This document shows positions 21,543 through 58,432 of a DNA stretch of 64,000 nt, piece by piece (the stretch's first letter is position 1; each line of letters opens with the position of its first letter). This stretch comes from Lycocorax pyrrhopterus obiensis. Taxonomy: Eukaryota > Chordata > Aves > Passeriformes > Paradisaeidae. The notes under the pieces are model-generated. The model did not search any database. It had not been told where the DNA came from and saw only the letters and a program-made list of their open reading frames with translations. The stretch lies in assembly GCA_014706295.1 (NCBI GenBank), contig JACSVZ010000001.1, positions 40,360,383-40,424,382 of the forward strand, written 5' to 3'. Position numbers and translations under genes: made by a program.

Positions 21543-23703
21543 CTACAAAGGAAAAAAGAAGCAAAATTATCAGTGGGTGGAATGCAGAAGGTATGATCAT
21601 TTGCTGTCTTTATGTACCTAACCCAAATACTCCTCACAGCTAAGCCAGCAAGGATCTTATTTAGCTGGCACTAGGAATACAACCCAGACTATCCCTGACA
21701 CTCCTGTGTGCTGAACTGGTGCTCTTACCAGAGATCAGGCCCTGCATCGTTGAAAAAGGAAATCCTTGCTCCTTTGCCATCACTGATCAAATCCCAAAAA
21801 TTCTTTTCAAACCCAAACTGGTTAGTCAATACAAACTGAATTTGCAAATGCTGGAGGTGCAAGAGAGTTTGCAACACTTGCAAACAATCCAGTAAAAGCA
21901 AAAAAAAGTATGCTGTGCATTTTCTTTTTGCCGAGTTCCGTCTGAAATGCCTTTGGCAGGAGTTGGTTCAGTAAGCACCCACACCCATGTTGCTGTGTGC
22001 ACACAGAGGACATCACTCTGCAAAGTGAACAAGTGGAAGATGCTGCTATCGCGAAACAGGAGCGGCAGTGCCAGACACTGCAAAGACTGAAACAGGCTCC
22101 TGCTCAGTCTTGCTCCATATTCTCTATATTTCGCCCTAATAGACTATGGGTCACATAAAACCACAGGACTAGGCAGCCTGCCAAGGTAGCAATGCCTATT
22201 ATCTTCAACACGGTAACACTGCTCCCTCCTCACTGCCCTGAGGGGTTCCAGGTATCTGTAGTTGACTTCCAGCAGTGCCTAGAAGGCTGTTGGGACCATA
22301 GAAGGATGTTACAGCATTCTTGCTTGACACTGCATCAGCTGGAGCCGAGCCAGACCTGGGATGAAGAGAGATCCCTCCCGAGCTTCACTCTCCCCTGCTT
22401 TATCTCAGCACCAAGAAGTGCTAAAGTTGAAGCACATCTACCAAGTCTCAAATTTCATGCACAGCAGTTGTTCCTTTTCCAACTATGTTGGCTACTTGTT
22501 CACTCTCAGTGGCCTCCTGGGCCAGTCATTCGTGGAGCACAGCTGATACAACTGTATGCTAATCATCAGGCCTGTCCCTCTTGGTGATCCAGCAAATTCA
22601 AATTTGCCTACCACAAGAATAAAGGACAGGGTGGGAAACGGGGTTTAGCTCTGAAGAGCTAAAACTTTTTGTTTCTGCAGACACTGGGTGAAATATTAGA
22701 TGAAAACAGCGTATCTGCTGTTGAGACTGCAGCAGTGACTGCAGAACTGTCCCACAGAACCTGGCCTCTTCTCTCAGCAGGCTGGCTTCCCAGAAAGCAA
22801 GGGTGCATAGCAGTGGGGCCACAGCTACCTCGCTGCCTGTAAAAACCATGTTATACTGGCTCTGTCTAAGCTGGGCTCTGATCAGCTGTCATGTGGGATC
22901 CTGGAACAGAAAAAAAGCTGGGGAGAAAGTGTGTCCCTGGTTCCCAACTGGTCCCAAAGCTCTCCCCTGAAGCATGCCCTCCTTTCCACAACACTCAACA
23001 CAGGAGTTGGCAATGCACCTTACTGGGTGATTTAAGAGCCGAGAGGTCTGGAGCTGGCCAAAATGCCATGAAGGGGTTTGGATCCAGTGCCATTTCACAG
23101 AAAATAGTTATTTCAGACCAGATCTTGCACACATTATTCTTGGAAGTGAAACAAGACTGTTGCTGTGTGTGCAAATATGGCAGCTATTTGCCTTGGTGAT
23201 TTTAACAACCACACTCTGATCAGATGCTACAGATGAATGACTCATTGAACACACAGTTTCACTTACTGAAAAATCAGAATCATTCAAATAGGTACTCCAC
23301 AGTATTTCATGTTAAATGGAGGGCATTTAATACAGTAGAAAACATTTATATGTGCCCCTAAGGAGCTACTTCAGTTTTAAGAGAAGTCATTGAAAACCCA
23401 CAGGCATTTTTAGTAATTATAACCACAAAGCATGAGAGCAAGAAAATATAACTGAAGTATGTCCCAAGTTCCTCAACCTGATACAGTTTCTTAGTGCATG
23501 TTACTAACCGCAGAACAAACCTCTACTCTCTGATTTTTGTGTCATTTCCTCCCTGGAGGAGCCCTCCTGTGCACGGCAAAGAATACCTACAGTGCAGAAT
23601 ACAAAAGTAGCATGGAACAGCTAGGATGCTAAATGGAGCAGATGAAATACCACCACTGACTAGAGCTTCACGTGTTTCGTGAGTAACGCTCAAGTAAACA
23701 TAC
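21543..23703. other. FARP1 intron
   Basis: The intron is 2.16 kb. No transposable element, RNA gene or exon was recognised. The 131-codon plus-strand frame at 22192-22587 looks accidental. Confidence 0.8.
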
Positions 23704-23793
23704 CGACGTGATGACTTCAAGGTCCTTCAGGTATGTTCTCTCCGTGGTCGCCACTTCTTTAGCAATGAAGTAAGCTTTCTCAGTTGGGAACCT
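23704..23793 (-). CDS. FARP1: FARP1 exon: first conserved helix of DH domain
   Basis: The 90-nt exon is phase 0 at both ends, with acceptor TTCACAG and donor ACGTCG|GTATGT. It reads RFPTEKAYFIAKEVATTERT then YLKDLEVITS. The AKEVATTERTYLKDL helix is conserved region 1 of Dbl-family GEFs; its Glu normally contacts switch I of the GTPase. This is where the catalytic half of FARP1 begins. Confidence 0.97.
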
Positions 23794-25251
23794 CTGTGAA
23801 TTGCAAGCACATTAGGTTTTCCTCTGCTTTTATGGAGAAAAAACCCGTAGATAATAAATCACGAAGAGAGTTACAAACCAGTGACCCTTGCTTATGGTTA
23901 TATCGTGACTCATGCTTGAATGTTCCTAAGCCCTGAAGCCCTAAAAACAACCCTTCCTTGCAAACACAAGAGAACAAGCACTTTCTATGCATTTTTCTCT
24001 TCTTTTTCTGCCAACATGATTTCTACAGCTTTGGGGTGCTGATGTTCCTTTCAGTCTATTCCTGGAACAGGACACATTGGGAACTTTATGAAGAAATCCT
24101 TTGCAGGCTAGATGACCATTTGAATCAAATGTCAAATTTGACAAAATGACAAAAATTTGTGTCTGATTATTGTAAATTTTATAATCAGGATGATAATCCA
24201 CAGGAAAAATACTTTCAAAAAAATTCAAACCTGTAAGATTTTCCCAGGCTGGGCAACCTAACAGTGGGAGACTAAGTTACTGATTTAAAATTTCTTAATT
24301 CTGAAGAGCCAAAGGAACCCAGCTGATCTTCTTCTGTGTTGCTCAGGAAGCAAAAATTAAGGAAAAAACATCTATAGATCTTTTTCCTTTGTTTCCTCCC
24401 TGAAGACAAATGATGCAGTGGAAACACTGTGAATGCCCTGCGAAGGGAGTCTGTGTGGGCAATTCCTAGGCAGAATGCACCCCCATAGGAACCATCATCA
24501 GCTGGTATACACAGCAGTCACTGGCTGCTCTATCTTGGACTGGCACAGAGAGTCCTGACTCTCTTAACTGATTCTCAGCTTTTCTTCTTCTCAAATTTCT
24601 TTCACGTATCTTGCTAACTACACACAGTGTGAATAGAGATCTTCCTTACACAAACTCCCACTTTCCAGCAAAGCCATCGGAGCTCCTTTCTTCCTTCTGA
24701 GACGCTCCAAGCTGAGGAGAAAAAAACAGGCCACAGAAGGACAAAAAGCAAGCCCCTCTCACCCAGCAGCAGAGGAGGGATGAGCCAGCAGGCACCCAGA
24801 ACACCCTGGCTCAGACAAACACTTTATCTTCAGAAAGCAGTTTTGGATGCGATGCTCCCTTATGGCTTTGCTGCAATGATGGGTCTGAGCCAAAGCCAAA
24901 CACTCCCAGCTGAGTGCTGCAGGCTGTGGCTCAAAGAGAGCATTTTCTACTCCCACAACCAGATGCTTCCAGTGGTGCTCCCAGCAGAGACAGACCAGAG
25001 AGCCTGGGTTGGACACTCCCACAACAGGCTCAACACTGTTCCTTTTCTTTCTGTTACCTGTAAACTTTCTCTCCAACAATGGAGCTGACTGTTTTGTTAC
25101 AACAAACTACCAGACTCCACTCCCTAAAAGCAAGTTAGATTTACAGGAGACCCTGTCCAAACAAGCTCCTGAGGTTTCAACCAACAGGAATGGCCCAGAT
25201 TTATCACAACACATCAGAGAGGAGAGACAAGGCCAACTTCATTCGCCTCAC
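23794..25251. other. FARP1 intron
   Basis: The intron is 1.46 kb. Nothing beyond the splice sites was recognised. Confidence 0.8.
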
Positions 25252-25439
25252 CTTTCTTTTGACCTCTTCCTCATCATCAGCCCTGATGCATGACGGGTCA
25301 TTCAGCAAAGGGCTGACCAAGGGAGATGACTGCTTGGCATCAGGGCTCAAGTTTGGAGATAAAGTCATATTTGCCACTGATGGTCCTCCTTGGGAATTGA
25401 TGGAAAGCTCTGAAAGGTGAGGGCTGCCAGTCAGAGAAC
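25252..25439 (-). CDS. FARP1: FARP1 exon: linker between FERM-FA and DH
   Basis: The 188-nt exon has acceptor TTTCTTAGCAG and donor AAAG|GTGAGG. Its first two bases complete a Gly codon from the upstream exon and it ends in phase 0. It encodes SLTGSPHLSELSINSQGGPS, then VANMTLSPNLSPDAKQSSPL and an acidic/basic end (DDEEEVKRK) that leads into the DH domain. This is low-complexity, Ser/Pro-rich sequence, probably disordered and phosphorylatable, and well conserved with mammalian FARP1. Confidence 0.95.
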
Positions 25440-35700: not shown

Positions 35701-38643
35701 CTTACCATGAGCACTTTGGGAGCCAGGACAGGAATTCCTCCATCTCATCTCATTTGCAGTCTTGCCCTAAAGGTTTCTGTTCTTTTCTGCAAGGTCCTTC
35801 CGACTGCCCCAGAGAAACAAATTCCCAGATGAATTCTAAGGGACCTGATCCTGTATGAAAATGTCAGATTAAAACTGCTTTCTCACTTCACCATTCTTGG
35901 CAAGGGCTCAGATATGAACCACATGTCTGGTGGAGGAATTTGGCCCACAGACTGTTTTTAATTAAAAGCTTGTCTACTGATATTAAACGGAGCTTCACTG
36001 GCATTAGAATGCTGCAGAAGTAATTAATCCTAAATGAAATTATTTCCTATGTAATTTATAAACTTTACTTCTTCTAACTGGAAGAATTCCAAGTGTTAAA
36101 ACAACAACTACTTAAACATTCAAAGCTGAAAAAATGCCAGATGACAGAAAACAGAGAAAAATCCTCATATTGCATTTTTGAGGATAATATTGAAGTGGAA
36201 AAAGAAAAGCTGTTGAGATACTTTATTAGCAACTAGACTAAATCCAGTTACCCAGTAGGTCTGTTCTTAAAAAGTTATAAATGCAATATATTTGTAGGCA
36301 TACGAGAGAAGAATCAGGCTCGGATACAGTATCTGAAAGGATGCAAAATAGTAAACACTACTTATAAAATTTTATATTCACTTAAATCCAAAGAATGTGA
36401 AATCTATTCACTTTTCTTAAGTAGCAGAAATTACTGAAAATCCTTCTTTTGTTGAAAATCCATTACTTGAACTCTAATTTTACTGGCTAACGAAGCAATT
36501 AATTCATCTGTCCAAATTGCTATTACTTTATACCTACTGGTACTTTTGCTGTACAGGCAAAAAAAAAATAAATCAAAAGGAGAGTCATGCACCCACTTCC
36601 CCATGCTCACACTATCTGCTGATGTGAGCTTCAACTACTTATATTTCATCTTATATATTGTGAACTTCAAGGCAATTATTTTACAGCTATTCTAAATCCA
36701 AAACACAAACCATCCTCTTTTAGAATCATATACAAGCAAGCTTTTCCCTAATTATCAATCTTGCCGTTTGTAGACTCATGCTTTTAACTACAGGAATAAA
36801 TGAGAGTATTCCCTGTCCCCAAAATATCAGTATCTAAAGAGATGCTTTAAATCATTCCTGTTCAAGAATGAGGCATCTAACCTCTAAGAAAACCAACACA
36901 CTAAAGGAGACGAGAGAGTTTATACTTATATTTACACAAAGATGTATTTTACTTGCAAAACAGTAAAGTATATAACAACACATGCCTAACTACTGTAGGT
37001 ATATTTTTAAATATCCTTCACTCAGATTAAACTCTGTTAAAGTGTGCATAGACCAAGGCATTAGAAAAATTAAAAAGACTTCTTATTTTATAATTTTTGT
37101 AAAAACAATCTTGAAAATTTTATATTGTCTAAATTTACAAAGTCCTGTCACTTTTTCATCAGTACTTATGTGAATGGATTCATCATTGCCACATGCATGT
37201 AGTGCATGGTGCAGATCACTGGAAGTGACCTGCAGTTCAATCAATACTGTCGTTCATCACTTAAAATTCTGGGATTTATTTCCATTCTTCCACAAGAAAA
37301 ATATATAAAAGTTAAAAATAAGGCCAATCATAAAGAGTACATCTTGTCTCCCAGATCTAATAACTGTAGGACACTTTCCATGCAGAGGACCTTTCATCCG
37401 TATTTTCTTAATTAACTTAGAGAAACTAAAATCAGATTTTATCAGGATACCTTAATTCTCAATACTTTTAGCTGTGAAAAGGAAGCATACACAGAATTAG
37501 TCTCTTTGTCCTTCTGCCCATATCCACTCTGTGGAAAGAACAGAAGACAATCAGCCTGGAACACAGTTACTCCTATTAGTCTCTTGTGGATGAAAAATTT
37601 ATGAGGTGGCACTACTAAAAAAGTAGCCTACGACAGAGTAATTGGATCCTGCACAGATGAAGATTTTTTGTGATCAAAGCAAAAAGTAAAATTAAACAGC
37701 CACCATCTCCAAACCACCGACCACAGAACTTTGATGTCTCTATAATAATTTCATGAAAGTATAAGTGATTAAAAAATTTCTTGCAATATCTCTCTATATT
37801 AAACTGATAAAGGACAGAAAGGATTGCCTTGCAAGAAATACTCATACCACTCTTCATTAGAACTGTTTTGATCAAAGTTTTTTTCACTTGAATTGTATCT
37901 TTCATCCTGATCTCTTTCTTGCCCAAAGAAGAGTTTGGAGTTTCAAAATCTCCATCACCAAATCAGCCTGTTGAACTCACTGAAGAAGAAGACAATACTG
38001 TCATTTTTCCTGACAATACTGTAATTTTATCCATGCCTGATTTGTACCCTCAGTTCATCAGATTATAAAATGAGTTATGAAGATGAGTAGACCAGACATA
38101 TTCTTGCTATGAAAAAATTTTCAGGCATATTTCAAGATTTCAGCAAGTCTTAGTCTTGAATATCAAGCTGCCTGCATTTGGCCGCAAGTTTGTTTTTTTT
38201 CTCCTAACTCTTTTGAGGCACTCATAAGTTGCTCTCCTTATACGGGAGAGAAAAAGGATTGTAATAGACATACAAAAGAGCACAATGTACCTACTTGATT
38301 TGATTGTTTGTTTTGTCAAAATAATTAGTCAAATATCGAAGAAGCTACAACGTATACCTAAAACATGACTTCATACAAAGAAGATGTGAGCGTACAAAGA
38401 GGTACCTAAATCAGTAATAATTTTCCTCTCCTCCTGCCTTTCAGAGGAGACACAAACTGTTAAGCATCACTGAGACTTATTATTGTGTTCTAGCATCCTT
38501 TCCCTCCGGCTGGTCTGTACAACAATAATGTCTGAAATAGCCCACGCACTGAAATAATTACCAGCCACTCATCACGAGCCCCAGGAGATGCAACCACTCC
38601 AGTGAGCAATCACAGTATCCCCTGGTCTCATACACCCTGGTCC

Positions 38644-39888
38644 CTAGCAGCTGAAGACCTGCACACCATCTTCATCACTGAGGCCGACAGAAACATCCTC
38701 CTCTACCTCCTCATCAAGCTGAAGGCTTCCAAAGGAGTACTTATTTCTAGGCATGGGAGAGGAGCTCAGCACAACAGGGTTTCCAAACACCAGGGGGTGA
38801 GTGAAGGGGTTAATGACTTCTGAGTCAGAATCACTGGATTCTGTCCCACTGCTGGTGGAGCCCTCCATCATCTGGATTGCAGCCATGTGATCCATCATGC
38901 CACTGGCACGCAGCGACTGCATGACTGGGCTCTGCTTTGACTGTGCCCCTGCTGGCATACCATTGGCCATCATTTTGCCTTCTGGAGAGGACACCTTAGC
39001 CACCCCACCTCCTTTGCAGTATCTCTCTGATCTATACTCCTGCCCAGGGGTTGAGGATATCTGGCTTAGGATAAATGGATCTGTAACTGACTTATTGCAG
39101 AGATTTGGGGTTTTCTGCACACAAGGCCGTTGAGAACCTGGAGAATATCGGCAATACCCATGGCTGTCCTCCTCTCCAGTCCTCACCCTGCAGTCGTGCC
39201 CATTTTCTGAGACATAACCCTGAGAGCCAGTTCTGCTCAGGCTCATGTTAGGGCTTGACTCTTTGCTACTGGGAGGCAATGGAGTGGCCAGCGGACTACG
39301 GCTCCCAGGGCCTCTAAACATTTCGTCAACCAGAGAGCTATGCCTTGGCATCCTGGGGCTTCCCCCAGTGTAGAAGGAGAGATTAGCTGTGTTATCATCA
39401 AGGTACTCTTCAGAGAGATACTGGGAAGACTTTAGAGAAGCTGAGGAATCCCTATATCTAGTTCTATTGCGATTTTCATCTCTGTAGTGAATATAGGCAC
39501 CACTGGTCAAATCACCCTCATAATTGTCATTTGTTTGGGAATATGACCGGGTTATTTGTCCTCTGAGGAGATCATACTCGCTATCTACATCACTGCAGTC
39601 AATGAAAGGAATGGAGGTGCTGCTGCCATGAGCAGCCCTGGAAGCTGGACCTGTGCTTGGCTGCTGTGATTGAGGTCTGTTCTGCTGCATCCTATCCTTA
39701 GCAGGCTCCTCTTCTTCCTCCACTGTTGAGACCACTGCTCCATCCACCTTTCTGCCTTCCTTTGGACTCTTCTTCAAGGAAGGGCTCTTGTGCTGTCCAG
39801 TGTCTTCTGTGGAAGCTTTCAACTCCTTTCCTTGCCGGCAGCTCTGCACTGCTGCAGCATCATTGCTGTCTCCATAGGCTCTAGCACT
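38644..39888 (-). CDS. FARP1: Extended form of FARP1 linker exon with FRMD7-like C-terminal tail
   Basis: From the acceptor at 39888 the frame runs through the internal donor at 39651 and stays open to TAG at 38644-38646, 334 codons past the donor. The tail reads as real protein: Ser/Arg/Tyr-rich, probably disordered, with stretches such as IPFIDCSDVDSEYDLLRGQI, HYRDENRNRTRYRD, MPRHSSLVDEMF and ESSDSDSEVINP. It ends with GSLQLDEEVEED and a short C-terminus (VQVFSC). ESSDSDSEV and GSLQLDEE resemble the last part of FRMD7, a FERM-FA protein without a GEF domain. Used as a terminal exon it would give a FARP1 form with FERM and FA but no DH or PH. A weak donor after 38667 (GATG|GTGTGC) is in phase with the exon at 25439 and would instead give an in-frame 328-residue insert. 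The open frame is certain; the transcript form is inferred. Confidence 0.8.
   Translation of the reverse strand, partial: SARAYGDSNDAAAVQSCRQGKELKASTEDTGQHKSPSLKKSPKEGRKVDGAVVSTVEEEEEPAKDRMQQNRPQSQQPSTGPASRAAHGSSTSIPFIDCSDVDSEYDLLRGQITRSYSQTNDNYEGDLTSGAYIHYRDENRNRTRYRDSSASLKSSQYLSEEYLDDNTANLSFYTGGSPRMPRHSSLVDEMFRGPGSRSPLATPLPPSSKESSPNMSLSRTGSQGYVSENGHDCRVRTGEEDSHGYCRYSPGSQRPCVQKTPNLCNKSVTDPFILSQISSTPGQEYRSERYCKGGGVAKVSSPEGKMMANGMPAGAQSKQSPVMQSLRASGMMDHMAAIQMMEGSTSSGTESSDSDSEVINPFTHPLVFGNPVVLSSSPMPRNKYSFGSLQLDEEVEEDVSVGLSDEDGVQVFSC
39651..39888 (-). CDS. FARP1: FARP1 exon: Ser/Glu-rich linker after FA (standard form)
   Basis: The 238-nt form has acceptor TTATCATTCCAG and internal donor CACAG|GTCCAG, entering in phase 0 and leaving in phase 1. 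It reads SARAYGDSNDAAAVQSCRQG, then a Lys/Ser-rich part, VEEEEEPAKDRMQQNRPQSQ and QPSTG, matching the mammalian linker QSCQQGKE...EEEEEVVKD...PQPPQPSTG. The donor has a strong CAG but C at +3, C at +4 and A at +5, so it is weak, and read-through gives the extended exon. Linker residues are probably disordered. Confidence 0.9.
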
Positions 39889-41540: not shown

Positions 41541-41616
41541 TTGTTTTGGCACCTCTGTATGCTGTTCTGAAGGCTGTGCAGTCAGACTCCTGATGGAATG
41601 AATCTTGCTGTGTTTC
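41541..41616 (-). CDS. FARP1: FARP1 exon: end of FERM-adjacent segment
   Basis: The 76-nt exon has acceptor TTATCTCCAG and donor AAACAA|GTCAGT, with one base completing Arg and ending in phase 0. It encodes KHSKIHSIRSLTAQPSEQHT then EVPKQ. KHSKIHSIRSLA is the conserved end of the FA region in FARP1; the following residues diverge. The donor is unusual (A at -1, C at +3), but phase and the match of the next exon support it. Confidence 0.88.
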
Positions 41617-42362: not shown

Positions 42363-42431
42363 CTTTCAAACTGCACTTTTTTGTGCCCTCCTTCCTTAAC
42401 ATAGTCAAGAACTTGCTTCTGAGTTCGACCA
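42363..42431 (-). CDS. FARP1: FARP1 exon: FERM-adjacent (FA) segment
   Basis: The 69-nt exon has acceptor TTTTTTTCCAG and donor GAAAG|GTGAGA, entering with one base and leaving in phase 2. It reads SGRTQKQVLDYVKEGGHKKV then QFER. The FSGRTQKQ motif, split over the upstream junction, is typical of FA segments that follow FERM domains and regulate them by phosphorylation. Confidence 0.96.
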
Positions 42432-44063: not shown

Positions 44064-44227
44064 CTGAACCTAAATGAAGAACCTCTAGAAAAAAGAACAG
44101 GTTTAGGCTTTGGTTTAGGTTCCTCAAAAAGCCTGAAAAAGGCATGATGCTCCACACAGATCTTCCAGAAAGACTTGCAAAAATCTCGACTGGCCATAAG
44201 GAATTCCAGGGTGTCCTGGAATGAACT
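44064..44227 (-). CDS. FARP1: FARP1 exon: FERM F3 lobe C-terminus
   Basis: The 164-nt exon has acceptor CAATTTTCAG and donor TTCAG|GTAAGA, entering in phase 0 and leaving in phase 2. It reads [20 protein letters not shown], then [20 protein letters not shown] and [14 protein letters not shown]. It covers the last strand and long helix of the PTB/PH-like F3 lobe ([17 protein letters not shown]). The KPKPKP and GSSFR segment starts the FA region. Confidence 0.97.
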
Positions 44228-44754
44228 CTGAAAATTGGGATAGCATTTGCAAGGTAAGCTAGTAAGCAACATAGATTAGAGAAATGCATTGACAAATCAG
44301 GCACTACGCTAAAAAAAATAAAGAAAGCTTCTTCCCAACTTACTGGCTTTCGGGCTTAACAGGCCCTATGCTTCCAACTTTGAGACATCATTGGTCTGCC
44401 TGTCAGTATCAAAGCTATTGCTCAAACTTCCTTTCACTGACAAATATGACAGAGATAAAGCAGTGGTTTGAATGTTAATGAGAAGAAGCTGATTACATGC
44501 TTTACCTAAAGAATTGATACAGTACCAAAGTTGCAACCAGAAGATGACTCTGAGACATTCTATTATGATTGATTCAGTTTACATGTCCTTTGCTAGGACT
44601 GCTCACCAGAGATGCCAGGTTGATGTGCACAGCACCAACAGTGAACAAAAGCAATTAAAATATTCATGAGGTGATAAAAACCATGTGCGATCTGTGGGTA
44701 GAAATTTACCAAATAACCTTTTGTCAACTTCATCAATTCCTAACAAGGACTTAC
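44228..44754. other. FARP1 intron
   Basis: The intron is 527 nt. Nothing beyond splice sites was recognised. Confidence 0.85.
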
Positions 44755-44850
44755 ATTCACATCAGGCCGTAGTTTGATAAGAAAACGTTTCCTCTTGAAG
44801 CTCAGCTTTCGAACCTTAGCCCAGTTGAAGGCATTGATCTTGGTGTGACC
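44755..44850 (-). CDS. FARP1: FARP1 exon: FERM F3 lobe strands
   Basis: The 96-nt exon is phase 0 at both ends, with acceptor TTCTCTGTAG and donor GTGAAT|GTAAGT. It encodes [20 protein letters not shown] then [12 protein letters not shown]. [23 protein letters not shown] is a hallmark of FERM F3 lobes. The mammalian protein has Phe where His occurs at the second residue. Confidence 0.97.
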
Positions 44851-47490
44851 CTACAGAGAACAAAGACAGCTGGGTTTAATCATTCCAGATCTGAATGGAA
44901 AAATCTAAACCACTAAAGAAAGCTTGTCATAAATTAATCATCTGTTCACTTAACTTGAAATGATGCTATTTCTTATAATTCAGCCTCTGGTAATGCAAAC
45001 CATAAACATCTGGCGCTATGACTGAAGGCAGGCACTTATGGTTAAACTCTTGCAATACAGGACTAGGCATAGTGAGTTATCGTGAAAATATTCAACCCAG
45101 TATCACAAAACAGAGTGCACCAGATTTTGCCATCTTGTGCCACTATGCAGACTCAAGATTTTCCGTGGACTAAATCACCTTCCAAAGGTGCCTCACTCTA
45201 TTTCCACCAGTGACAGAGAATGCAGGGAATCCAGACACATCACCTCACTTTGATGAGGTAGATTTCCTCCCTCTTTGTGTGTCTGCAGGGCAAAACAAAT
45301 ACCCCTTTAAATATTGCTTAACTGTGGAAAACTACAAGTTTTGTATTGGAAGTACAAAATACTGTGCATGTTTTGACCTTTCATAGGGAGTACCAGAAGC
45401 AAAAGCAATCTAAACAAATTATTTGTCTCTAAAGAGCCACAAAATGATTTTCTTGGAAAAAGCAACCAATACCATAAGCAAACAGCAAAAAGGAAATTAT
45501 CTTCATAATACTACAACTCCCTGCCACTACATCATCAGCCCCTACCCTCCAAAAGTTTCATTCTTAATCTATGTCAGCAGGTAATGGAGGTGTTATTTTA
45601 AAATATTCATTACAGCAGTTTGTTCAATGAAGACTTCAACACAAGAATTCCTAGAGCACAGCACAGAAGTTTCAGAGAACTACTACAGAATTGCTAAATG
45701 CAGAAACCCACGTTGATTCGGGCACCATCACCAGACAGCTGTAGGAGTAACGACAGTGTAATGATCTCTGCTAAGTCAACCAGCTGTCTAAGAATCACAT
45801 AATTAATCTACTTAAAATAATCAGCAGCACTGACACTGATTTCTAAATAAATGGTAGACTTTAAAATAAGTCTGACTGCAGCTTATGCCATTTGTGAGTG
45901 AACCTTTATTTTCATTGGGGTCATTCTAAGGAGATCCTCATATTTCAATTTCTATCAGTTATAACCAAAATAAAAATAAGAACATAGCCCTTGACCTATG
46001 AAGTGGCTGAAAGAAGCCCTAAGCCTACTGACAGACGCCAATCGCTGGGCAGACTCCAGCAGGTCAGGGCCCGACTTCCTTTTCAGCATTCAGTCTTGGA
46101 GCATGACCCAGTAAAATTTCCAAGCTTTTCAGAAACTTTAAAAACAAAACAAAACTGTTGTGAAAGTCCCAAACACATTAGGTCAAGAAGAGATGACTTC
46201 AGACCTTGACAAATCAAGCCTCAGGCCATCAACCTGCAGCTACACTTTATGGAAGGATCCCAGCTGTCTGCTGGGACTCTGAGGTCCATGCTGCTTTCTG
46301 TGGACACATACTTTCACCTTGAAGACAGTCTTAATTTATAAGGCTTGGCAATTCATTAATTCAGCTGATGCAAATGCTGTGGAGGAGCAGGGGAAGGGCC
46401 CGAACATACAATTGCTTGAGTTATGTGCATTTCTAACAATGTCCTAGTGTTCTCATGCTTCAGCCTATGCTTCAGTTTTGGGGTTCTACTACTAACTCAT
46501 TTAGTTGATCAGGGATCTTTTTAATTTGCTGCCTCTTTTTGGTTGTTTGTTTGGTTGGGTATTTTTAACTCTGCATTTGGGTCAGACATTTCTGGACTTG
46601 TTTGTTGCTGTTACTTTTCTTTATGAAAGGACTTAGAAGTACTTTGTAAGGCTGGAAACACTAGTATTTTAATTATAGTCAAACAGTTAAAATGAATAGT
46701 CTTTCTAGACAATTGTAAAAAGTGACATTTTAAAGAAGAGCTTACTTACTGTTTTTAATGCACCATGAGGTAAGCATCTAAAGTGAAAGAAGTTGACACC
46801 AGCTGACTGCCTATAGCTTCACAATTGTAAAAGCCCAATTTGTTATTTATCTAAGGGGAACTGCAGAATGAGATTTTGATAAATTTACTAATGATGCTTC
46901 ATGAATATTTACTAGACTGACTGGGGTAGGAAAGGAGAAGAAAGAAATAGAAGGAAAACACTTTGGATCTTTAAGGGAAAGAAGTAAGATTCATGGATTC
47001 AGCAAGGTACAATGGCCAAGGCTGGTCAAGAAAAATGTAAGAACTCTGACAAAGTAACACAACAGAGAGCTTATATTTACTGCCTTCATCCTTCTGCATG
47101 GATTCCAGCTGTCTGTTGTTTTACTTGTCTCTGCTTCTCACCCATTTAATATGCACCATGCCTGCAAGACCTACCTGCTCCTACATGTAGGAGAAGTCAG
47201 CATAACCAATCTGCAAACTGTGAGCCATGGCCCAGTTTGCATCTTGAACAGCACGTTGTGGATGCAGATGGAGTTCTACACTGCACATCCACATAAGGTA
47301 GGAGTCCCTACCTAATGCAGGACCTAATGCAGCTATAACAGGTTTAAGATCATTCTTAGAAAAAATTTTGGAAGTTCCTGCATTTTCCCAACTGAATACT
47401 TGTAGACATGGCTGAGTTCCTGAATTCTTACTGCTGCCAGAAATCTCTCAGCTTTATGAAGTACAAAATCACGTCCCGAGAGGCTCTAAC
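44851..47490. other. FARP1 intron
   Basis: The intron is 2.64 kb. There is a 16-bp palindrome (CTCCTACATGTAGGAG) at 47178-47193 and a short direct repeat of CCTAATGCAG near 47310-47330. No transposable element was recognised. Confidence 0.8.
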
Positions 47491-47638
47491 CTGAAACACC
47501 AGAATGCCTGTGTTGGCAACAGCCAGGTTGATTTTTGTCCCCTCCCTGTCCTTGGCTGGATGCAAGCGTATCCCGTACATCTCCAGCCGACGGGCAATCT
47601 CCAAAAGCTGGAAGTCAGACTCTGCTGGTGTCTGTCCC
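47491..47638 (-). CDS. FARP1: FARP1 exon: FERM F2-F3 junction
   Basis: The 148-nt exon has acceptor TTTCTCAAG and donor TTTCAG|GTTAGA; one base completes a split codon and it ends in phase 0. It reads [20 protein letters not shown], then [20 protein letters not shown] and [28 protein letters not shown] closes the F2 helical lobe and begins F3. The split codon at the 5' end becomes Met instead of the Ile of mammals (NHMGQ versus NHIGQ). Confidence 0.96.
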
Positions 47639-48794
47639 CTTGAGAAAGAAAACAGAGAACACTCACAAGCTTGTCACACCTTTTAATAGAGATCAAGAGG
47701 TCCTCCAGAGAACAAAGAGACATTTGATCAAAGAGACTGAAAACCGTCAGAGGTATAATATCTGTATGGTTTTTCTATGTCCCCAGACTAGCACCAGCTA
47801 GAACAACAACTTAGTCTAAACAAATATCAAAGAACACACAGATTTTACAGTCTATTATAAATTTTGATTGCTCCAATGCTGGAGACACCTGATACAGCTA
47901 GATTTTAAACCATTAGCTCTAACAGAATTTACTACCTCCCTTTGTTTTTTCCACTGGAAAACATGCCATATTCCTAAAAAAAACCCCATAACTGGAAGTG
48001 TGTAATGATACTATTCATTGTAAAAGGGAATGTAATACCAAAATGAAGTAAAACAGAAGGCATGAAAACCTTACCATAAATCTTGGGAAGCTATAAGCAC
48101 CACATTAATTTTGATGAAATTACGCAAAGCTTTGATTATTACTGCCACAGAAATCACTACCACTCACCTATTATTCAACCTAGCTCAAAAATGAAACTGT
48201 TCACGTCTTGAAGTGTTCTCAACAGCTAAAAAATACTTTTCTATGCCTTATTGGTACTTCTGTTCATCATCTTCCTAGTTCAGGTCTTTTCTCCAGACAT
48301 TAGGATACCAACTTGCATCATCATCTTGAATTCTGTTCCCCCAAATCCCTAATTCAGCAAGTACTCTGTGCTTTTCCTAAAACTATCACCAAACCCCTTC
48401 TTCAACCTGTCTCAAAATACAGCACGGAAAGGTTGAAAGGCAACATTCAGTGTCCTTGAAAACAAAGGACTACTGTCAGAAGTGCCTGACTGATCAGTTG
48501 TGATTTGCAATCATACCTGCATGCACAAAATCAGCAGTGAAGCATTTTGTATGAAATAGACTGTAAAATAACAGCATGCTTGAATGAATATTGAATCAAT
48601 TGTGCTTTGAACATCTTGTTATGATGATGGGAAAAAGGCAGGAGTAACCTTCAGAAAGTTCATAGGTTTTAACAGTTTCTGAGAAGCAATCTTTAAGAAA
48701 CTCAGAGGTCCAGACCTCTTTCGTTCTTCAGATCTAGCATATACATATATAGTTAGAACTACTCTGCAGAATAACAAAACCAAAAAAGTCTTAC
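47639..48794. other. FARP1 intron
   Basis: The intron is 1.16 kb. Nothing beyond splice sites was recognised. Confidence 0.85.
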
Positions 48795-48909
48795 ATGTGG
48801 TTACGGTGAAATTCCATGATTTTGTCTTCTAGTGCTTCTTGATGAGGTATATACTTGTTCTTCGCTAAGTGTTCACGATCTATGGTTTCATCAAAATCCC
48901 CAATCTCAG
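48795..48909 (-). CDS. FARP1: FARP1 exon: FERM F2 lobe
   Basis: The 115-nt exon has acceptor TTCTCCACAG and donor CACAT|GTAAGA. Two bases complete a Ser codon and two are carried forward. It encodes EIGDFDETIDREHLAKNKYI then PHQEALEDKIMEFHRNH. The SEIGDFD motif and the LxxNKYIPxQ segment are typical of the acyl-CoA-binding-protein-like F2 lobe. Small differences from mammals (ETI for EAL, HQE for QQD) look like normal divergence. Confidence 0.96.
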
Positions 48910-51900
48910 CTGTGGAGAATTTTAAGAGAAGTCTATTAAAACACTATATTACATCTGAATAATCTGGTCAATCCAAAAGACCCGGACAGCTGGGAAGAGG
49001 GCAGAGAAGCAAACATAGTTCCTTGCAACCTGTGTCATGGTTTTATGATTCAGATTCCCACTACATTATCTTCCACATATTACTCTCTTCTGTGTTAGTA
49101 TTCGACACGAGAGAAGAAGCCCAAGGATTTCTCCCATCTACCACAACCAAGTTGCCGGATGTCAACTGAAGAGACGAAGCCATCAGTGCTACCTTTACTT
49201 GTGTGGGGGATAAGGGCAGGGGTAACAGGGAGGGCAGCACTAACTGAGCAGAACTCATCCATCTCTCTCACACTCTCTCATGGTGTGCAGGTGCCTTTCC
49301 ATGGAGCAGCCAAACACTAGCTTCCTCTCCAGACCCATGTCCCACACGGTAACCTTTGAGAGAAAGTCAGAAAGATGGTTCTGTTTGCTTGTTTGAACAC
49401 AGGCTTGTAATCCACCTCATGGGATTATGAAACATTTGTCTTCCTCTAATTCTGCAGCAGTTTGAGACACATTCTGTCTTCCTCCTCCTCAAAGCTGCTT
49501 CCATCTGCTGCAGTTATTCAACAGTGTGTGTGCAACAGTATGGCACACCCACCTTCCATTTTGCAGCCCATTCAGTGAAATTTCCTTTTCATGGTAGGTG
49601 TGGGGGTGAGGGGCAGGCAATCTATCTGTGGGTGCCAAATTACTATCTTGTTGCCTGCTATTCTTGGAATGTCTCTGAAAGTCTAGTTTTTCCACTGAAC
49701 AGGCATAGCAGCTTCTGCCTGCAAACCTGATGGGAGTAATAGCAACATTGCTGCAACAAAGGCTGCTACCTTGGCAACGTCAGGGAAATCAAAATACAGT
49801 GCCCTCAAATTAAATGCAGGTTGCAGTCAGGCACGTTGTTGCACAGTTGACCTAGGATATGACAGACCCAAGCTCAGATAAACACCTGCTTCATCCTCGC
49901 CTCAGTTCCGCCCATGTAAATGAACCCTTAATCCAGTTCTGTTCAAACTAAGTATGTTCAGAAAAAGGAAAGGTTTCAGATCACGTTTAAAACACCGTAT
50001 TTCTGACAAACTTGGATCAGATGTACCTTAAATGCAGAGGGGAAGCAACAGCCTTGTGTAGGCACTGAAAATGAGGAACCAAAGCATCTGTGAATGACAG
50101 AGCAGTAGCTTTTTTGACCCAAACTGCCTGCAGACACATGATGACATTTTTTACTTTGAAGGTCAGAGGTGGAAAAGAGTTGAAAACCGAGACTGTCTGA
50201 TTTCCATCCCCTCATTCACCCCATCTGCTCTCAATCATTCCTTAAAACAGTAGAAATACTACAGAACCTTTGAGAATTTCCTTTTTTTAAATTGTCCTGT
50301 TTATCCCCATCTCAGAGACAGCTCTCTCCTTCCAATTTTACTCATTCCAGACTCACAAATCTTCAGGGTCTGTTTTTAACCCTAACTCAAATAAAAGGCA
50401 AGTTTCTGTTCTTCAGTGAAGCCATAAACCCACCTAAGTTTGCAACACCTCAAATAACATGGGCCTGGATTCTTCAAAATGCAGTTCAAAACCTCCATGT
50501 CTGTGTACACAGATGAGCTTAACACACCTCCTGTCGGGCTTTCTTCAGAGTCAACAGCACAGAAGACTCTTTCTCCACCTCTATATGATTTCTAAATTGT
50601 TCTCAGCATTTTTCAACTGCTAATCCATTATCCATTATCAAAATTATCTTCCTGGCTTTTAAGTTACTGCTGAATTTGTTCTCTCTGACCTCATACTCAA
50701 CAAGCTTTTACTTCCCGCCTTACCCTCCTTTTCCACCTTAAATTACTTTCTAGCAGCAGTCCATTGAGAATGAGAGGAAGTTATATTGTAAATATTGTCA
50801 GCCTCACGTGTAACTATTCTTTAAAATCTTTTCATGAGATTTAACCAAAGACTTATTTATACTGCTGATGGTTTTTCTCTTACCTTGCAAGTGCATTACA
50901 CTGTGCTGTATTGTGTCTGCATTAGCACTTCTGATATATCTAATGCTCTGTATTTCAGCTCTTTTCCTCTTACCACAGAATCACAGAATTGCTTCATTTG
51001 GAAAAGACCTCTAAGATCATTGAGTCCTACTGCTAACCCAGCACTGCCAAGTCCACCTGTAACCATGTCCCTGAGTGCCACATCTACACTTATTTTAAAT
51101 ACCTCCAGTGATGGTGACTCCACCACTTCCTGGGGAAACCTTTTCAAATGCTTGAATTTCTTCTTTCCGTGAAGAAATGTTTCCTAGTATCCAATCAAAA
51201 CCTTCCCTGGTACAACTTGAGGCCATTTCCTATTGTCTTATCACTAGTTACCTGGGAGAAGAGACTGACCCCCACCCGGCTGCACCCTCCTTTCAGGCAG
51301 TTGTAGAGAGCAATAAGACCCCCCCAATCCTCCTTTTCTCCAGGCTAAACAACCCCAGCTCCCTCAGCTGCTCCTAATAAGACTTGGGCTCCAGAACCTT
51401 CCCCGTCGTCCTTGACCTTCTCTGGACACACTCCAGCACCTCTGTCTGAGGGACACAAAACTGGACACAGGATTTGAGGTGTGGCCTCACCAGTGCTGAG
51501 TACAGGGGGACAATCACTGCCCTGGTCTGCTGGCCACACTATTCCTGATACAGGCCAGGATGCCATTGGCCTTCTTGGCCACCTGGGAACACTCTGGCTC
51601 ATGGTCAGTCCATCTTCATACTTCACACTCACTGTAGTGCATCGTTTGCAGTACCCAAGTGTCCTCTCACTTCTAACACTTTTTACAACGCTTCTAAGGT
51701 ATTTTTAAATTGAATGTTTCAAATACAAATTTCATTCTGTAATATACATGCTAATTTAGCAGAAACCTATTTGCTGTCATATTATGATTTTATGATAAGT
51801 AACAGTCTATAACATTGACATAAGCTTGCATACGTAATATATGGGCCTCCTGGAGTCAGATATTCCCCATGGAAACTGCTCATTGGCACAGCATTAGTAA

Positions 51901-54210
51901 GACATACAATAACTAACCTGCATTCTCAATCTTTCCCCTTCGATACCATTACTCTTATCATCTGTTTACTTTGATTTTTATTGCAGACAAATACATAATA
52001 TTTCTTTTGCTACTGAAAAATAAGATAGGGACAAAATAAATAAAGACAGCCATAGCAGGTAAGCTATAGACTCTTAGCAGAGAAAATTTTCACAGAAAAA
52101 TGTTCATGAGATACAAGATGGACAAATAAAAAAGACAATTGCAAACTTCTAGCAGAGGTTTCTAGCAAACACTGCTATGCAAAAAAGGGAGAGGGGAAAA
52201 ATCACGAACAGCAAAAAAAGAGGCCAGATTACAGTCAGGAGATGTGGAGGGGAAGCACTGCAGAAGCACCATGAGGCACAACATCCCTCTGACCAAACTG
52301 GCAGTTCAGATTCTGTGAACACTGTTTCACTTCTGCATGATGAATCTCTTCTCTCTCTTCTGACACAGTGAAAAGATTCTGTTTTTCAGTACAAAAGTAG
52401 CTTACCTTGCTCTCCACTTAAGGAGACTACTACTTGATCCCTAAAATCCCAGTTCAGAACCACTCTGCACCTCAAGGTCACAAGTGAAAGGGACAGAAGT
52501 TTCAAATGCACCATGACCACTTCAAGCAAACTGCGTAAAATTATTTAATCCAACAATATAATGCATCTCAGTAGCACAAGAGCAATGGAGATAATTTGCC
52601 ACTCTGCACACCTTGGAAATGAGTGCTTCTCACCAGCCTGCACAGGTGTGTAATGGAGGAATTTTGAAAATCCATGGAATTAAATTTGAGTTTGACTGTA
52701 GAGCAGAGGGACACAGACACCTTGTAAAGGTGAAAGGACATCCAATATTTTATCCTCTTATGCTGTTGCTTTAGGAAAACAAGCTAGCAGTTGAACTCTG
52801 AACAGTTTGGACTCCAGAGCTGAAGACAGCTCAGTGAAGAACTTGAGTAATTAAAAAGGTCCAAGTAAGACATGAAATAGGATCTAAGCAGAGATCATAA
52901 GGAAAACAATGCATAGCAAGTGTAAGTGCTCAAGAGAATATGATCAGAAAGCAATACCTCAAATGAAGAGAGACACATGCATTAGGGTGTCCACTCCTCA
53001 ACATCTTTCTCTGGTGCACAGATATTTAGAAGGAAAACTCAGTCTCCTAGAATGCAGTTTAGCAAATGAGACTCAATTTCCCCAAATAATCAAGATTTTT
53101 TTTTTTACTGCCTGAGATGAAAGAAAGCTAGAACTAGCTTAACCAAAAAAAGAAATATAGCTGGATTGCTGGACACTATAATGGGAAAAACTAAGAGACA
53201 AAAATCTCACTAGTCAAGGATTTTATTTTTTTAAGCCTATGCTGCCAAAATACACAATTTGAAATTGGTATGAGGACTACAGAATTTCACAGTTTCTTAC
53301 TGCTACTCAGTCACACTGGTCAGTGATGACCATAGCAAATAGAACCATAAAATACCTGCCTTTCCAACAGCAGTTGATGAGAAACTGCCCTAACACTCTA
53401 ACAGACTATGACAAAGGGTCTTGAGATTTATCTGTTCACCTCCAAAGAGCTTCCAACTGTCTTTGTTGACTGTAATTTCCATACAACAGCATTACAGTGG
53501 AGGTACACAATACTGAATTGTACAAAGATCATTCAAAACAATGTCTATTACAACCATTATACTTGCTGCTAAGTGGTTTTTCCTAATGTTATTCTCAAGA
53601 TGAATATCCATAAAGTCTTGAAAGGGAAAACATATACTGTCTTTCAAGTGATGTGGAAACTAAAAGAAGCTTTGATGTCATGAACAAAATTAATGTGTGA
53701 TTCTGCTGGACAGTGTTATTGTGCATACTTTGCAATTAAAAAAGAAAAAAGGGCTTAAAATCTATTGTTTTCTTTTCTTCCCTATCAGTTTCCTCTTAGG
53801 GCTGTGATTTAGTCTGGCATTCTAAGCATGTTTATTTACTACATTCTCTAGACAGCACACAGATCTCTAGGAATGTGAATACCCTGCTGACATGATGCAA
53901 AGTATAATAAAACGGGATTTCAGCAGAATTCAACATGTTTGCCACTGCCTGCAAAGTCTACTTTTTAAATGATCTTTGGCAGCCTATCAAATGCTTTGAA
54001 AATTCAAATCCTCAAATCCAGTGACCAGAAACTCTTCTTTATCTCAAATAGTGAATTATCTGTATTTGAATGCCATTATACAGAAGTACAATAAATTGTC
54101 CAAATGGCTTAAAACTGTCCTTACAGCAGATACTAGCTGGTAACCCTGCAAAGCATGTCCAGCCAATCATCCTGTTTATCTGTCTGGAAAGAAGAAAAAA
54201 GGGAACTTAC
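48910..54210. other. FARP1 intron with CR1 element
   Basis: The 5.3 kb intron contains a CR1 LINE 3' part at 50975-51625. The rest shows no recognised element; an 8-10 base T-run lies near 53095-53107. Confidence 0.8.
50975..51625 (-). mobile_element. CR1 LINE, 5'-truncated, about 650 bp
   Basis: Read on the minus strand, it begins in the end of the CR1 ORF2 region (ATGAGCCAGAGTGTTCCCAG, GGCCAAGAAGGCCAATGGCA) and passes through the usual CAGACAGAGGTGCTGGAGTG-like and GGAGCAGCTGAGGGAGCTGG segments. It ends at AATTCTGTGATTCTGTG, the CR1 3' octamer repeat. A short remnant of the reverse-transcriptase frame (minus, 51345-51632) is broken and not functional. Orientation is the same as FARP1. Confidence 0.93.
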
Positions 54211-54308
54211 ACTGTACTATATGTGAGATTAGGAGGGCAGTGCTGGTATCATTACATGTTAGCCTTCCCTGTGCCAGGTCCTGCTTCACTTGCAACGCAA
54301 ATAGGTAC
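54211..54308 (-). CDS. FARP1: FARP1 exon: FERM F1-F2 junction
   Basis: The 98-nt exon has acceptor TTGTTTTGCAG and donor CAGT|GTAAGT, with the first base completing Arg and one base carried forward. It reads [20 protein letters not shown] then [12 protein letters not shown]. The (R)[18 protein letters not shown] motif is a hallmark of the FERM F2 lobe first helices. The [11 protein letters not shown] helix continues onto the next exon. Confidence 0.97.
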
Positions 54309-56755
54309 CTGCAAAACAAAAGCGAACGAAGAGTTACACAAAGCAGGAGGGAAAGAGGGGAAAGCATAGCAGCTCTGCCTTTGATTGCACGTTCCCTTCA
54401 CTTTTTGGAATCTACAGAAGCGATCTGAATTACCTAAGTTTAGAGGCTAAATAAACCACAACAGATACTGTATTACTGCCATTAGAGCTGTACATGGTGG
54501 CTGCTTTGAAGAACCAAGATATCTCTCTTCTTCTCTCTTCCTCCCTCCCTTGGAACCAGCGCGACAAGATATGACAGTGCTAGCAAATGTGACAGCAATT
54601 AAGTCCTCAGCAAGAGATAATGCAGCTGCTTGTAAACATGAAGAAATGACAGATAAACCAGTGATTTAGAGTTATCAGTTGGTTCTTGTAGAATACAAAG
54701 TGAACTCTAAACTTCCACCCTGGCATTCACTTGGGAATGAGGCACAAAATCTTGATCAAACAACTCTAGCTAGCTAGCTCTGATACCTTTGTGGCCCTAG
54801 TATCTGCACTGTCCATGTACCAGCCCTTTCTAACATTGCCTCCAAACAATTTCAGCCATGCAGGGCAATTCTACACTGCCAGTTTAAATGCTGAGACAAC
54901 AGAAGTCCAAGACATTATTTCAACATTTAAATTTCTTTAAGCTTCAACAGAAATTGAAATGGCTTAGTTCCACTCAGTATCCAATTCTTCACTCAAAAAT
55001 AAAAAAGCTAGCAATGGGCATTTCTCCTACAGCTGGTATGAAACCTGAAGTGGTGAGACACACCTTAACAAGCCTTCCAAAGGCTGCAGCTCCTTTGGAG
55101 AACTCATACTAGGATCTCAATAATTTTAATAAGACCAGATTTTTATAGGTTTAGAGAAAAGCTCTCATTTGAACAGTTGAGTTTCTGAATGAGAAGATGT
55201 AGGTACACTAAACAAAAAGGGCAAGCTGATTTGAGGAGTATGGAAAAGTACTGTGTATGTACAAACTGAAATAATACAGCAGATCTACATAATGTCCTTT
55301 TGAAACCTGCAGACATCTGTCTACCCATAAAAAATTCACCCTGGTAGAGGAACATAGCACAAAAATCTTATAGTTTCTCCTTCTTCAAGTGATGAAGCAG
55401 TTCCCCGTGGATATGCTTTCACATCCTACACACTGCTGTGTATATATATTCAAGTCCCTTAGCATACATATTTAAAATCTAACCATAAAAAGTCATTAGG
55501 ATTAAAGGACACATCTCCAGGTACAGAGAGAGATCACCAAAAATTAATTTACAGTTCACATACTAAGAAACTGATATGCAGAATATCTATTCAGAAACAG
55601 AAATGTTTCATTAATAACATCACATTGTGAGTTTTTATTCATCCCTTTATTCTTTTTACTCTTTCTTTTATTCTTTAGTCTTTACCAAGTAAATATTCCT
55701 TCTTCCTACCCCACATTTTTACTTTTCTCTTTCCAGGCCATCAAGCGATATCAGTAATTTTTTTTTTTTTTATTCCAATGCTCTTATTACCAAAATAAAA
55801 CATGACAAAGATAAACAGTGAGCATCACAGTAGTGGACTTGTTCTTTATAATACAAGTCATAAGGACACCACAGCTCTTTGCAAAGAGGACTTTGTCTTG
55901 TGATAAGATTGAAAATAAAAACTAATAGTGAAAATTCTGAACCTGAATGGAAACATAATTAAAAACCAGTAATACTGTAGACCAGAAAAAGAGTGAAAAG
56001 TTGCAGTAAAGAAATACTGCAACAAAACAATGCTTCAGACCATAAAGGAAGGACCTGATAGTGAGAAAGAACCTTAACAGGTCCCTCACACACATATTTA
56101 CTCACAGAAAAATAGGACTCTTTGTGCCAATACAGTGTGAAATTCAAAGCTTAAATGAAGTTTTTCAAATGCACTGAAAAGCGTTTCAGCATTAGTATTT
56201 AAGGTACTCTGTCTGCGTACGTGCATCTTTCTCTTCATTCTTACTTTTCATTTTATTCCTTCTCCTTTCCATTTCTCCATCTCCAAAGTCACACTTCCAC
56301 CTGTGCAAACCTTTGGCTCTTGTGTTGGCTATACAGACAGGGTCCAGTGCTGCTGCAAATTGGCAATTCACAGAAAACAGCTCTCTCCCAAATGAGGGTG
56401 CAGAGTCACACATGTCCCTTGGCAGAGGGGTACCCCAGGGTGCTGATACATGACTTGGTCATGCCAAACAGAGAACTCTGTTGCCAAGCTGACCTCTCTT
56501 GAGGTTAGTAAAGCTCTCCCAGGACTCCATATCCAAGGAGGCAAAGGACTCCTGGACTTTGCAGAACCTCTCAGCACAGACTGCAGCTGAATCTTAGGGC
56601 CCATTTTTTCAGGTGCATTCAAGGCTGGGACAAATAATACCAAGCTAAAAGTAAGAGGCAGTCATCAATCCTCACCCAGTCATCTCACATTCCATGTTCT
56701 CTCCCCTCTGTCCATCAGAGATTTAACAAGAAGAAGTAGTCATGCAGCTACTAAC
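54309..56755. other. FARP1 intron
   Basis: The intron is 2.45 kb, with a 14-base T-run at 55758-55771 and T/C-rich sequence before it. No element or extra exon was recognised. Confidence 0.8.
55758..55771. repeat. Poly-T homopolymer (14 T)
   Basis: Uninterrupted run of 14 T on the plus strand in an intron (poly-A in the FARP1 transcript). No LINE or SINE was recognised next to it. Confidence 0.85.
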
Positions 56756-56834
56756 CTTGTCAGTTCCTCCTGCAGCTGAGCATGGTCAGGTGGGAAGAAT
56801 TTTACCACAAATTTTACAACAACGTGCTTCGGTC
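56756..56834 (-). CDS. FARP1: FARP1 exon: FERM F1 lobe end
   Basis: The 79-nt exon has acceptor TTTTCCCTAG and donor ACAAG|GTTAGT, with two bases completing Arg and two carried forward. It encodes PKHVVVKFVVKFFPPDHAQL then QEELT. The VVKFFPPD strand is a well known FERM signature near the F1-F2 boundary. Confidence 0.97.
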
Positions 56835-58389
56835 CTAGGGAAAATGTCAAAGGAAGTTAACAAACATCAATAACATGCTGGCCAAATATGCACAATGATG
56901 TACAAGGGATGATTCATGTAACCTGCAGTGCATACAGACATGCTAATGATGCCTTTTCCTGGTCTTAAAATCAAGAGTCGAACACGGTTAGAAGGGAAGA
57001 AGGGATTTTACCTTGGTATTTATTTAAGGATCCTTAGGTGCACCACGTCCAGGTTGAATGCACCTCCATGCACACTGTAATGCCCCCCAAAAGATCTGGT
57101 ATAACATTATAGGTCTTACTAATTAGCATATCTATCAAAGATTCCCCAATGAGAGGCTTGAGTGAGCCCCCTCCCCAAGGAACCTTCCCCTGGATGGTTC
57201 TATCTCACTTTACAAAATGTGTTCTGGAGAGGACCTTGGGGTGTGGGACATATTGCTCCCTAACTATGAAACCTCTAAAATGTTTAGTCTCCTAGCTTGA
57301 CAAACAAGTCCAAGCACGTAGGCAAAAAGCACTAGGAATACAGAAGTTGTAAAAAGGTATAAAGGGGCATAAAAGAAAAGGCAAAAAATCATCATGGTAT
57401 CACTAACCTCTTGTCCTTTGTTGGTATGCAGGATATTTGGAGACTGCCCAATAAAATTTACACACAATAAAAGAGAACAGTAACTTGGTCAAGGGCTACT
57501 CTGCCAAAACCAAGTATGTTTTTAGTAATTACATCAGTTGATCCAATAAAATATATGTGTATCTACTTTCCTTGCTTCAGAACAGGAGGGAGCTAAAATA
57601 CACTCTACTTTTTAAGCCCACTAGCAAATTACTATTTCTGTTTTAAGAGCAGCACATTCATTCCAACTCTTACAAGTATGACCAGTGACAAAAGGACCAA
57701 TGCATCCCTGTCTTGTGAGAGGGAGAGGTGCCAGAGCATACACTCAGACTAATATGAACAGAAAAGCACCTAAAAAAACTGAATCTCAATGGCAAAGCTC
57801 AATAAATTAAGAACTTGGCTGATATTTGACAGAGAAACAAAATAACCAGAACCTTTCCTGTTGACTTCTACTCTTTCCAGAGCTGGTGGCAATTTACAAT
57901 TTCTTGTTCTTTCCCACCACCCACTACAACTTCCCATATCCCAACTCCTCTTGCTCTCCAACAGTCCCAGGTTCGGCAGCAATGTCCCACACGATTAATA
58001 CATCTGCTAGCTCCTTTCCAGTAATAAAGTCTTCCTGTTCTTTTTCTTCCATTCTGATTCCTGCTACTACCAGTCAGCAATGTAAGTTCCTTTAGTCCTT
58101 CTTTTACTGCCCTCTTTCTCTCTACAAAATTGTTCCCTCCATTGCCACCAGTGCCTCTTCTAGTGACTGACTAAAGCCCAGCCTCCCATGGGGTGGGGTC
58201 AGCCTGTTCACACGCTCATGTGACATAACTTCACAGGTACATCTTTTAAGGACAGGCCAGAAACAAAAAATTAATTCCAACAAAATTTAGTGCATAAGGT
58301 TGAGAATATAAAGATTGCAACCAAGAGAGTCCTAATTTATTCAAGTGCTCTCAGACTGAGGAAAGAAACGTCAACAAGGAAGTACTTAC
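56835..58389. other. FARP1 intron
   Basis: The intron is 1.55 kb. The part at about 57077-57400, beginning TGTAATGCCCCCCAAAAG and containing GGTATAAAGGGGCATA, has an LTR-like look but I could not assign it. Nothing else was recognised. Confidence 0.7.
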
Positions 58390-58432
58390 TTCTAATCTGT
58401 TTCATAACAGGCTTCAAAAGATCGAGCCACAC
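58390..58432 (-). CDS. FARP1: FARP1 micro-sized exon: FERM F1 lobe
   Basis: This 43-nt exon is the smallest found. It has acceptor GTTTTCAG and donor AGAA|GTAAGT, entering in phase 0 and leaving in phase 1. It reads VWLDLLKPVMKQIR, matching FARP1 VWLDLLKPIVKQIRR. It is too short to be seen as an open frame, and was found by following the FERM sequence and phase. Confidence 0.95.

Follow-up and report, generated by a model that had tools for sequence, protein, structure and literature searches.

A conserved read-through extension of the FARP1 linker exon would encode a GEF-less FARP1 with an FRMD7-related C-terminus

The FARP1 locus

The stretch of DNA analysed here (64,000 nucleotides from Lycocorax pyrrhopterus obiensis, called the window below) is occupied by the FARP1 locus, which lies on the minus strand (Table 1). 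FARP1 is a nerve-cell gene, and the full-length protein has a Rho-activating half. Eleven exons between 62782 and 39651 carry, in a single frame, most of the FERM-FA region and the linker; the first coding exons lie beyond the window. The DH and PH part of the gene follows in exons that start at 25439 and reach at least as far as 534, and a Leptosomus model (P0070) joins the linker exon (39888-39651) to the exon at 25439 (..QPSTG/SLTGSPHLSELS; here and below the slash marks a splice junction). The FERM domain encoded in the window is 94% identical (288/305) to that of Tasmanian devil FARP1 versus 60-63% to those of two FRMD7 proteins, and on this comparison the locus was assigned to FARP1, with which the frame described below is continuous; FRMD7 was excluded as the identity of the gene. 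One exon of the FA region, 69 bases long, is absent from P0005 (peafowl) and P0026 (sturgeon), models in which the frame stays intact; it is possibly a cassette exon.

Table 1. Features of the FARP1 locus in the window
Feature	Position	Strand	Remarks
Eight upstream FERM-FA exons	44064..62782	minus	62782-62678, 58432-58390, 56834-56756, 54308-54211, 48909-48795, 47638-47491, 44850-44755, 44227-44064
Exon in FA region (SGRTQKQ..QFER)	42363..42431	minus	69 bases
Exon RKHSKIH..EVPKQ	41541..41616	minus	
Canonical linker exon	39651..39888	minus	Acceptor ttccag/AGT, phase 0 entry
Canonical splice donor CAG/GTCCAG	39645..39653	minus	When read through, GT CC belong to the codons for Gly-Pro
Read-through extension	38644..39650	minus	Last two bases of Gly codon, 334 codons, TAG; FRMD7-like C-terminus at 38647-38841
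Two AATAAA hexamers	36222..37280	minus	1.36 and 2.42 kb past the stop; candidate poly(A) signals, chance occurrence possible
Next canonical exon (..G/SLTGSPHLSELS)	25252..25439	minus	About 14.2 kb downstream; from tblastn of P0070 and P0263 and splice context
DH and PH exons of canonical FARP1	534..23796	minus	tblastn extents, not splice-exact

An open frame beyond the linker exon

The sequence-only reading of this DNA had described a 334-codon frame that continues from the FARP1 linker exon to a stop, and this was borne out. Past the donor at 39651/39650 the linker-exon frame stays open for 334 codons and ends with a TAG at 38644, and when the window exons 62782-39651 are joined to the read-through, a single frame of 745 residues results, from which the DH and PH part is missing. 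The read-through frame is thus a confirmed observation. Counted from stop to stop (38644-39996, minus strand) it comprises 450 codons, and the runner-up listed in the window has 174. Of the GT-anchored frames in the rest of the window (19,806, counted on both strands in three frames) none reaches 334 codons, the maximum being 170, which excludes a chance open frame. Read-through at ten other FERM-side FARP1 donors gave between 0.3 and 39 codons in the respective frame. An artefact of one assembly was also excluded, relatives of the tail being present in many species.

The linker exon product including the tail is 414 residues long. A Pfam match to Ski2_N (E 0.12) failed the cut-off of that family and was taken as noise; solved structures yielded no match at E values up to 10, and a scan of viral contigs found no relative. 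An AlphaFold2 model of the Xenopus protein P0244 (32 alignment rows) was of low quality, the FERM domain included (mean pLDDT 41.2), and contained neither helix nor strand beyond residue 353, which gives a faint hint that the tail may be disordered.

The canonical donor

The donor at the end of the linker exon scored -3.2 bits, the lowest of 14 FARP1 donors (the others ranged from 1.35 to 7.22), and 36% of the GTs on the minus strand outscore it; the scoring relied on approximate base frequencies, with three of the 14 donors entered by hand, and the set covers donors down to 21411. At the junction the Gly residue is followed by Pro in 131 of 164 relatives, by Leu in 22 and by other residues in 11 (the pattern matched 164 of 179 rows, in at least two of them, P0057 and P0074, at the wrong place). 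Where this Pro is kept, the coding demand of the tail fixes positions +3 and +4 of the intron as C. We infer that such a poor donor permits regulated read-through, by which the ratio of the two forms could be adjusted.

Conservation of the tail

A search with the 414-residue exon product gave 124 matches, of which 120 were listed. This search takes candidates of at most 1.75 times the query length, and therefore a second one was performed with the spliced 745-residue protein, in which the tail was scored alone; it returned 102 proteins. The tail is conserved among jawed vertebrates, from elephant shark to birds and including human. Its closest named relative is in the song sparrow, Melospiza melodia (P0241, identical at 325 of 334 positions). 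Identities to the window (tail versus linker exons) were 97 versus 96% in song sparrow, 92 versus 92% in peafowl, 70 versus 68% in gecko, 64 versus 64% in Tasmanian devil, 58 versus 52% in human, 56 versus 40% in Xenopus, 59 versus 48% in sturgeon, 57 versus 46% in elephant shark (322 tail positions aligned, only 48 linker positions), 51 versus 31% in coho salmon and 39 versus 32% in Sparus. In all ten species the tail was thus at least as similar as the two linker exons, the values for song sparrow, peafowl and Tasmanian devil being nearly tied.

In an alignment of 82 non-redundant tails one residue was kept in at least 75% of the rows at 77 of the 334 positions, and in at least 90% of the rows at 33. 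In the non-placental forms seen, conservation reaches the C-terminal end and the stop, and the GSLQLDEE..VFSC terminus is retained in shark, frog, bird and partly in Tasmanian devil. The placental tails seen, P0250, P0253 and P0254 among them, have lost much of this terminus; a shorter acidic end stands in place of GSLQLDEE..VFSC, and the ESSDS block is largely kept.

GEF-less FARP1 in other vertebrates

Sorted by Pfam and counted by hand, the 102 proteins comprised 48 with a FARP1-type FERM and neither RhoGEF nor PH, one FRMD7, 13 in which RhoGEF or PH was present and 40 for which Pfam gave no domain. The named sources of tail proteins include human, orangutan, Tasmanian devil, Xenopus, elephant shark, sturgeon and many teleosts. 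P0244, P0249 and P0250 were found in a Pfam scan to have FERM and FA domains, DH and PH being absent; these findings support the earlier proposal of an alternative terminal exon that would give a GEF-less FARP1. Human P0250 (797 residues, 21 members) and orangutan P0254 ('FARP1 isoform 12') are by sequence the same isoform as the frame in the window, and so are Xenopus P0244 and elephant shark P0249. Unlike the frame in the window, the human and orangutan models carry the label partial and have a shorter C-terminus without GSLQLDEE. As annotated models of it exist for human, orangutan, Xenopus, elephant shark and other species, the isoform as such is not new, and here the sequence-only reading, which left annotation open, needs correction. 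FARP2-named entries were found neither among the matches listed (120 of 124) for the exon product nor in the 102 proteins of the tail search.

Five proteins (P0253, P0261, P0273, P0276 and P0283) contain the whole FERM-FA-tail frame in 762-813 residues. The longest contigs carrying them, whose 'lgn' label presumably marks assemblies of public reads, are 3695, 2974, 2821, 4544 and 2720 bases long, respectively, and intron-free. Because the same exons cover 24 kb in the window, these contigs are most simply explained as spliced RNAs, from other species than that of the window; gene models, in turn, are not transcripts. Two partial proteins, P0016 and P0040, run from the FA-end exon straight through ..VPKQ into the tail.

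A 2025 review citing Li et al. 2021 (PMC12294458) states that Farp1 intron retention may yield an 800-residue isoform in mice, which might be unrelated to Alzheimer's disease. The size fits that of the mammalian models of about 790 residues. Such retention and the poor donor could also be read as signs that the tail is only the start of a retained or unspliced intron, devoid of protein function and visible owing to the weak donor. We regard this as very improbable, as both the 57% identity to elephant shark, which exceeds that of the translated linker, and the long open frames of the relatives would be hard to explain without translation.

Internal donors in the tail

In 'isoform 2' of mouse FARP1 (P0263, 1278 residues) and in models from Rhynchocyon, Orycteropus, elephant and Pyxicephalus the interior of the tail is joined to the GEF part. 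The mouse protein has the first 232 tail residues, counted between the STG junction and the join, as in the window tail; it differs in that an internal join ends its tail and the RhoGEF and PH domains are retained. In the GEF-bearing proteins with a partial tail (P0263, P0260, P0265, P0270 and P0291) the internal joins vary by species. Thus, in an amendment to the sequence-only reading, internal donors of some species place part of the tail in GEF-bearing forms. Two models in which the whole tail is followed by the GEF part (P0242 and P0245) look like artefacts. Within the tail of the window four GTs (39515, 39008, 38960 and 38666) have matching phase, and all of them score above the canonical donor.

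It could be argued from the five models and the four in-phase GTs that the tail is mainly an optional linker insert of GEF-bearing FARP1, included when the weak donor is skipped and left through an internal donor, and that the form ending at the stop is a minor one. This seems to us unlikely, as conservation in non-placental species extends to the C-terminal end and the stop, parts that the insert forms skip, and the intron-free contigs end with the tail.

Relation to FRMD7

FRMD7 is the gene of an eye-movement disorder. The order of the ESSDS and GSLQLDEE motifs and their distance from the stop had been given rightly in the sequence-only reading: counted back from the C-terminus, ESSDS begins at 65 and GSLQLDE at 28 residues in the window, and at 66 and 33 residues in human FRMD7, in identical order. 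FRMD7 had also been described there as a FERM-FA protein without DH and PH, with which the Pfam scan of turtle FRMD7 (P0299) agrees.

In tblastn against the whole window, run without low-complexity filter or composition correction, human FRMD7 residues 636-709 matched positions 38871-38647 with an E value of 2e-6. Composition-corrected tblastn of the tail alone gave weak matches (E 0.014 for human FRMD7, 0.003 for turtle and 0.006 for P0233). Turtle FRMD7 was also a match of the tail search, with an E value of 1.0e-4 against 5.8 billion proteins. FRMD7-named entries were absent among the matches listed (120 of 124) for the exon product and numbered one in the 102 proteins of the tail search. 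A Cricetulus griseus protein named FERM, RhoGEF and pleckstrin domain-containing protein 1 (P0240) is 77% identical to the tail region of human FRMD7, and from its sequence it looks like a misnamed FRMD7; no FARP1 tail was recognised among the matches listed (120 of 435) in the search yielding it.

Profile comparison of the FARP1 tail with FRMD7 by hhalign gave a score of 58.6 over 63 columns (56.4 with another form of the alignment), for FRMD7 rows selected by SLQLDE and a start anchor (113 of 121, 39 of them non-redundant), which favours a shared C-terminal motif, and for FARP1 tails cut by pattern (151 of 177, giving the 82 non-redundant rows with the window included). The tblastn search with human FRMD7 and the tail search are unaffected by this selection. 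Control scores did not exceed 22.7 in 200 column shuffles and 36.3 in 200 shuffles of eight-column blocks, and were 14.4 and 11.8 for reversals. The first 255 tail columns scored 21.2, inside the range of the shuffles. Hence of the FRMD7-like tail proposed earlier the last approximately 63 residues stand and the rest does not, and homology between the C-termini of the FARP1 tail and FRMD7 is real but limited.

According to a table in PMC3163398, intron 11 of FRMD7 follows c.1050. This nucleotide corresponds to residue 350 of FRMD7 (..DVSKQ/VEDLRLAYGGG); the boundary in the window is ..EVPKQ/SARAYGDS, and both are phase 0. With place and phase of the intron identical, FRMD7 exon 12 is thus the counterpart of the linker exon in its read-through form. 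The two proteins thus share a FERM-FA region followed by a tail without DH and PH, the ESSDS..GSLQLDEE arrangement near the C-terminus and the place and phase at which the last exon starts. They differ in that FRMD7 is a separate gene and the middle of its tail is without detectable similarity. In the literature on FARP1 isoforms, intron retention, FARP2 and FRMD7, the titles and opening lines of abstracts among the matches listed contained nothing on the function of the tail or on kinship with FRMD7.

Discussion

A similar gene layout has been described in Caenorhabditis elegans. According to excerpts of the published work, frm-3 produces FRM-3A, without GEF and PH domains, and FRM-3B, with them, the latter made by splicing inside the last FRM-3A exon; each of them rescues GABA-A receptor clustering, and FERM-FA is enough (PMC7260190). 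The anatomy of the window agrees with this layout: a single gene would produce a FERM-FA protein that lacks the GEF part, together with a GEF form spliced from the last exon of the former. The C-terminus of FRM-3A is described as having no recognisable domains, and the likeness to the FARP1 tail is one of gene layout, by description. Other excerpts report that FRM-3 binds LIN-2/CASK (PMC6920096), that CASK and GABRA2 are partners of FRMD7 (PMC9200781), that FRMD7 requires both FERM and C-terminus for binding RhoGDI-alpha and activates Rac1 through it (PMC3742540), and that in Neuro2A cells FRMD7 without its C-terminus is mainly nuclear (PMC3163398). The DH-PH-PH part of FARP1 is stated to be autoinhibited, and the FARPs were termed possible pseudo-GEFs (PMC6041286, excerpt). 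The parallels with the worm protein, FRMD7 and pseudo-GEFs would favour a scaffold role of GEF-less FARP1.

Alternatively, the short form might compete with canonical FARP1, its FERM-FA region taking SynCAM1, plexin or lipid sites without GEF activity. A protein with FERM and FA but no DH and PH would be expected to compete for FERM partners at high expression. Nevertheless, a pure competitor would have no need of a conserved 334-residue tail, and in the sources cited above FRM-3A rescues and does not block, and FRMD7 is reported as an activator of Rac1. Competition thus appears to be an improbable main role, and we prefer the scaffold to a mere competitor.

We therefore consider it fairly probable that the linker exon runs past its poor donor into the conserved 334-codon tail, and that the product, a FERM-FA protein without DH and PH, acts as a membrane scaffold of the FRMD7/FRM-3A kind and not as a Rho GEF. 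The exon boundary and the end motifs shared with FRMD7 make a scaffold role like that of FRMD7 likely. Read-through at the weak donor would yield FERM-FA-tail FARP1, the weakness of the donor would make the balance between both forms open to regulation, and the read-through transcript would terminate at an intronic poly(A) site. The FERM-FA region would bring the short FARP1 to the membrane, where the tail may add FRMD7-like partner binding or localisation; canonical FARP1 would be the GEF form from the same gene.

A broader scenario seems to us possible rather than probable. A FARP ancestor could have made a Rho GEF as well as a GEF-less synaptic scaffold by splice choice inside one exon, as worm frm-3 does, and FRMD7 would be its read-through form, frozen; FRMD7 would have kept only the scaffold, and vertebrate FARP1 both forms. 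GEF-less FARP1 could then be a second FRMD7, so far overlooked, with CASK, RhoGDI or GABA-A receptors as binding partners and perhaps a modifying effect on nystagmus; the Gly-Pro codons required by the tail would keep the donor weak and so hold the switch.

FRMD7 shares its end with FARP1, where it is the alternative one, and the exon boundary is common to both. Should GEF-less FARP1 act as a scaffold, part of the effects of FARP1 loss of function may be independent of GEF activity, FARP1 could partly substitute for FRMD7, and the results obtained with worm FRM-3A would gain a direct vertebrate counterpart.
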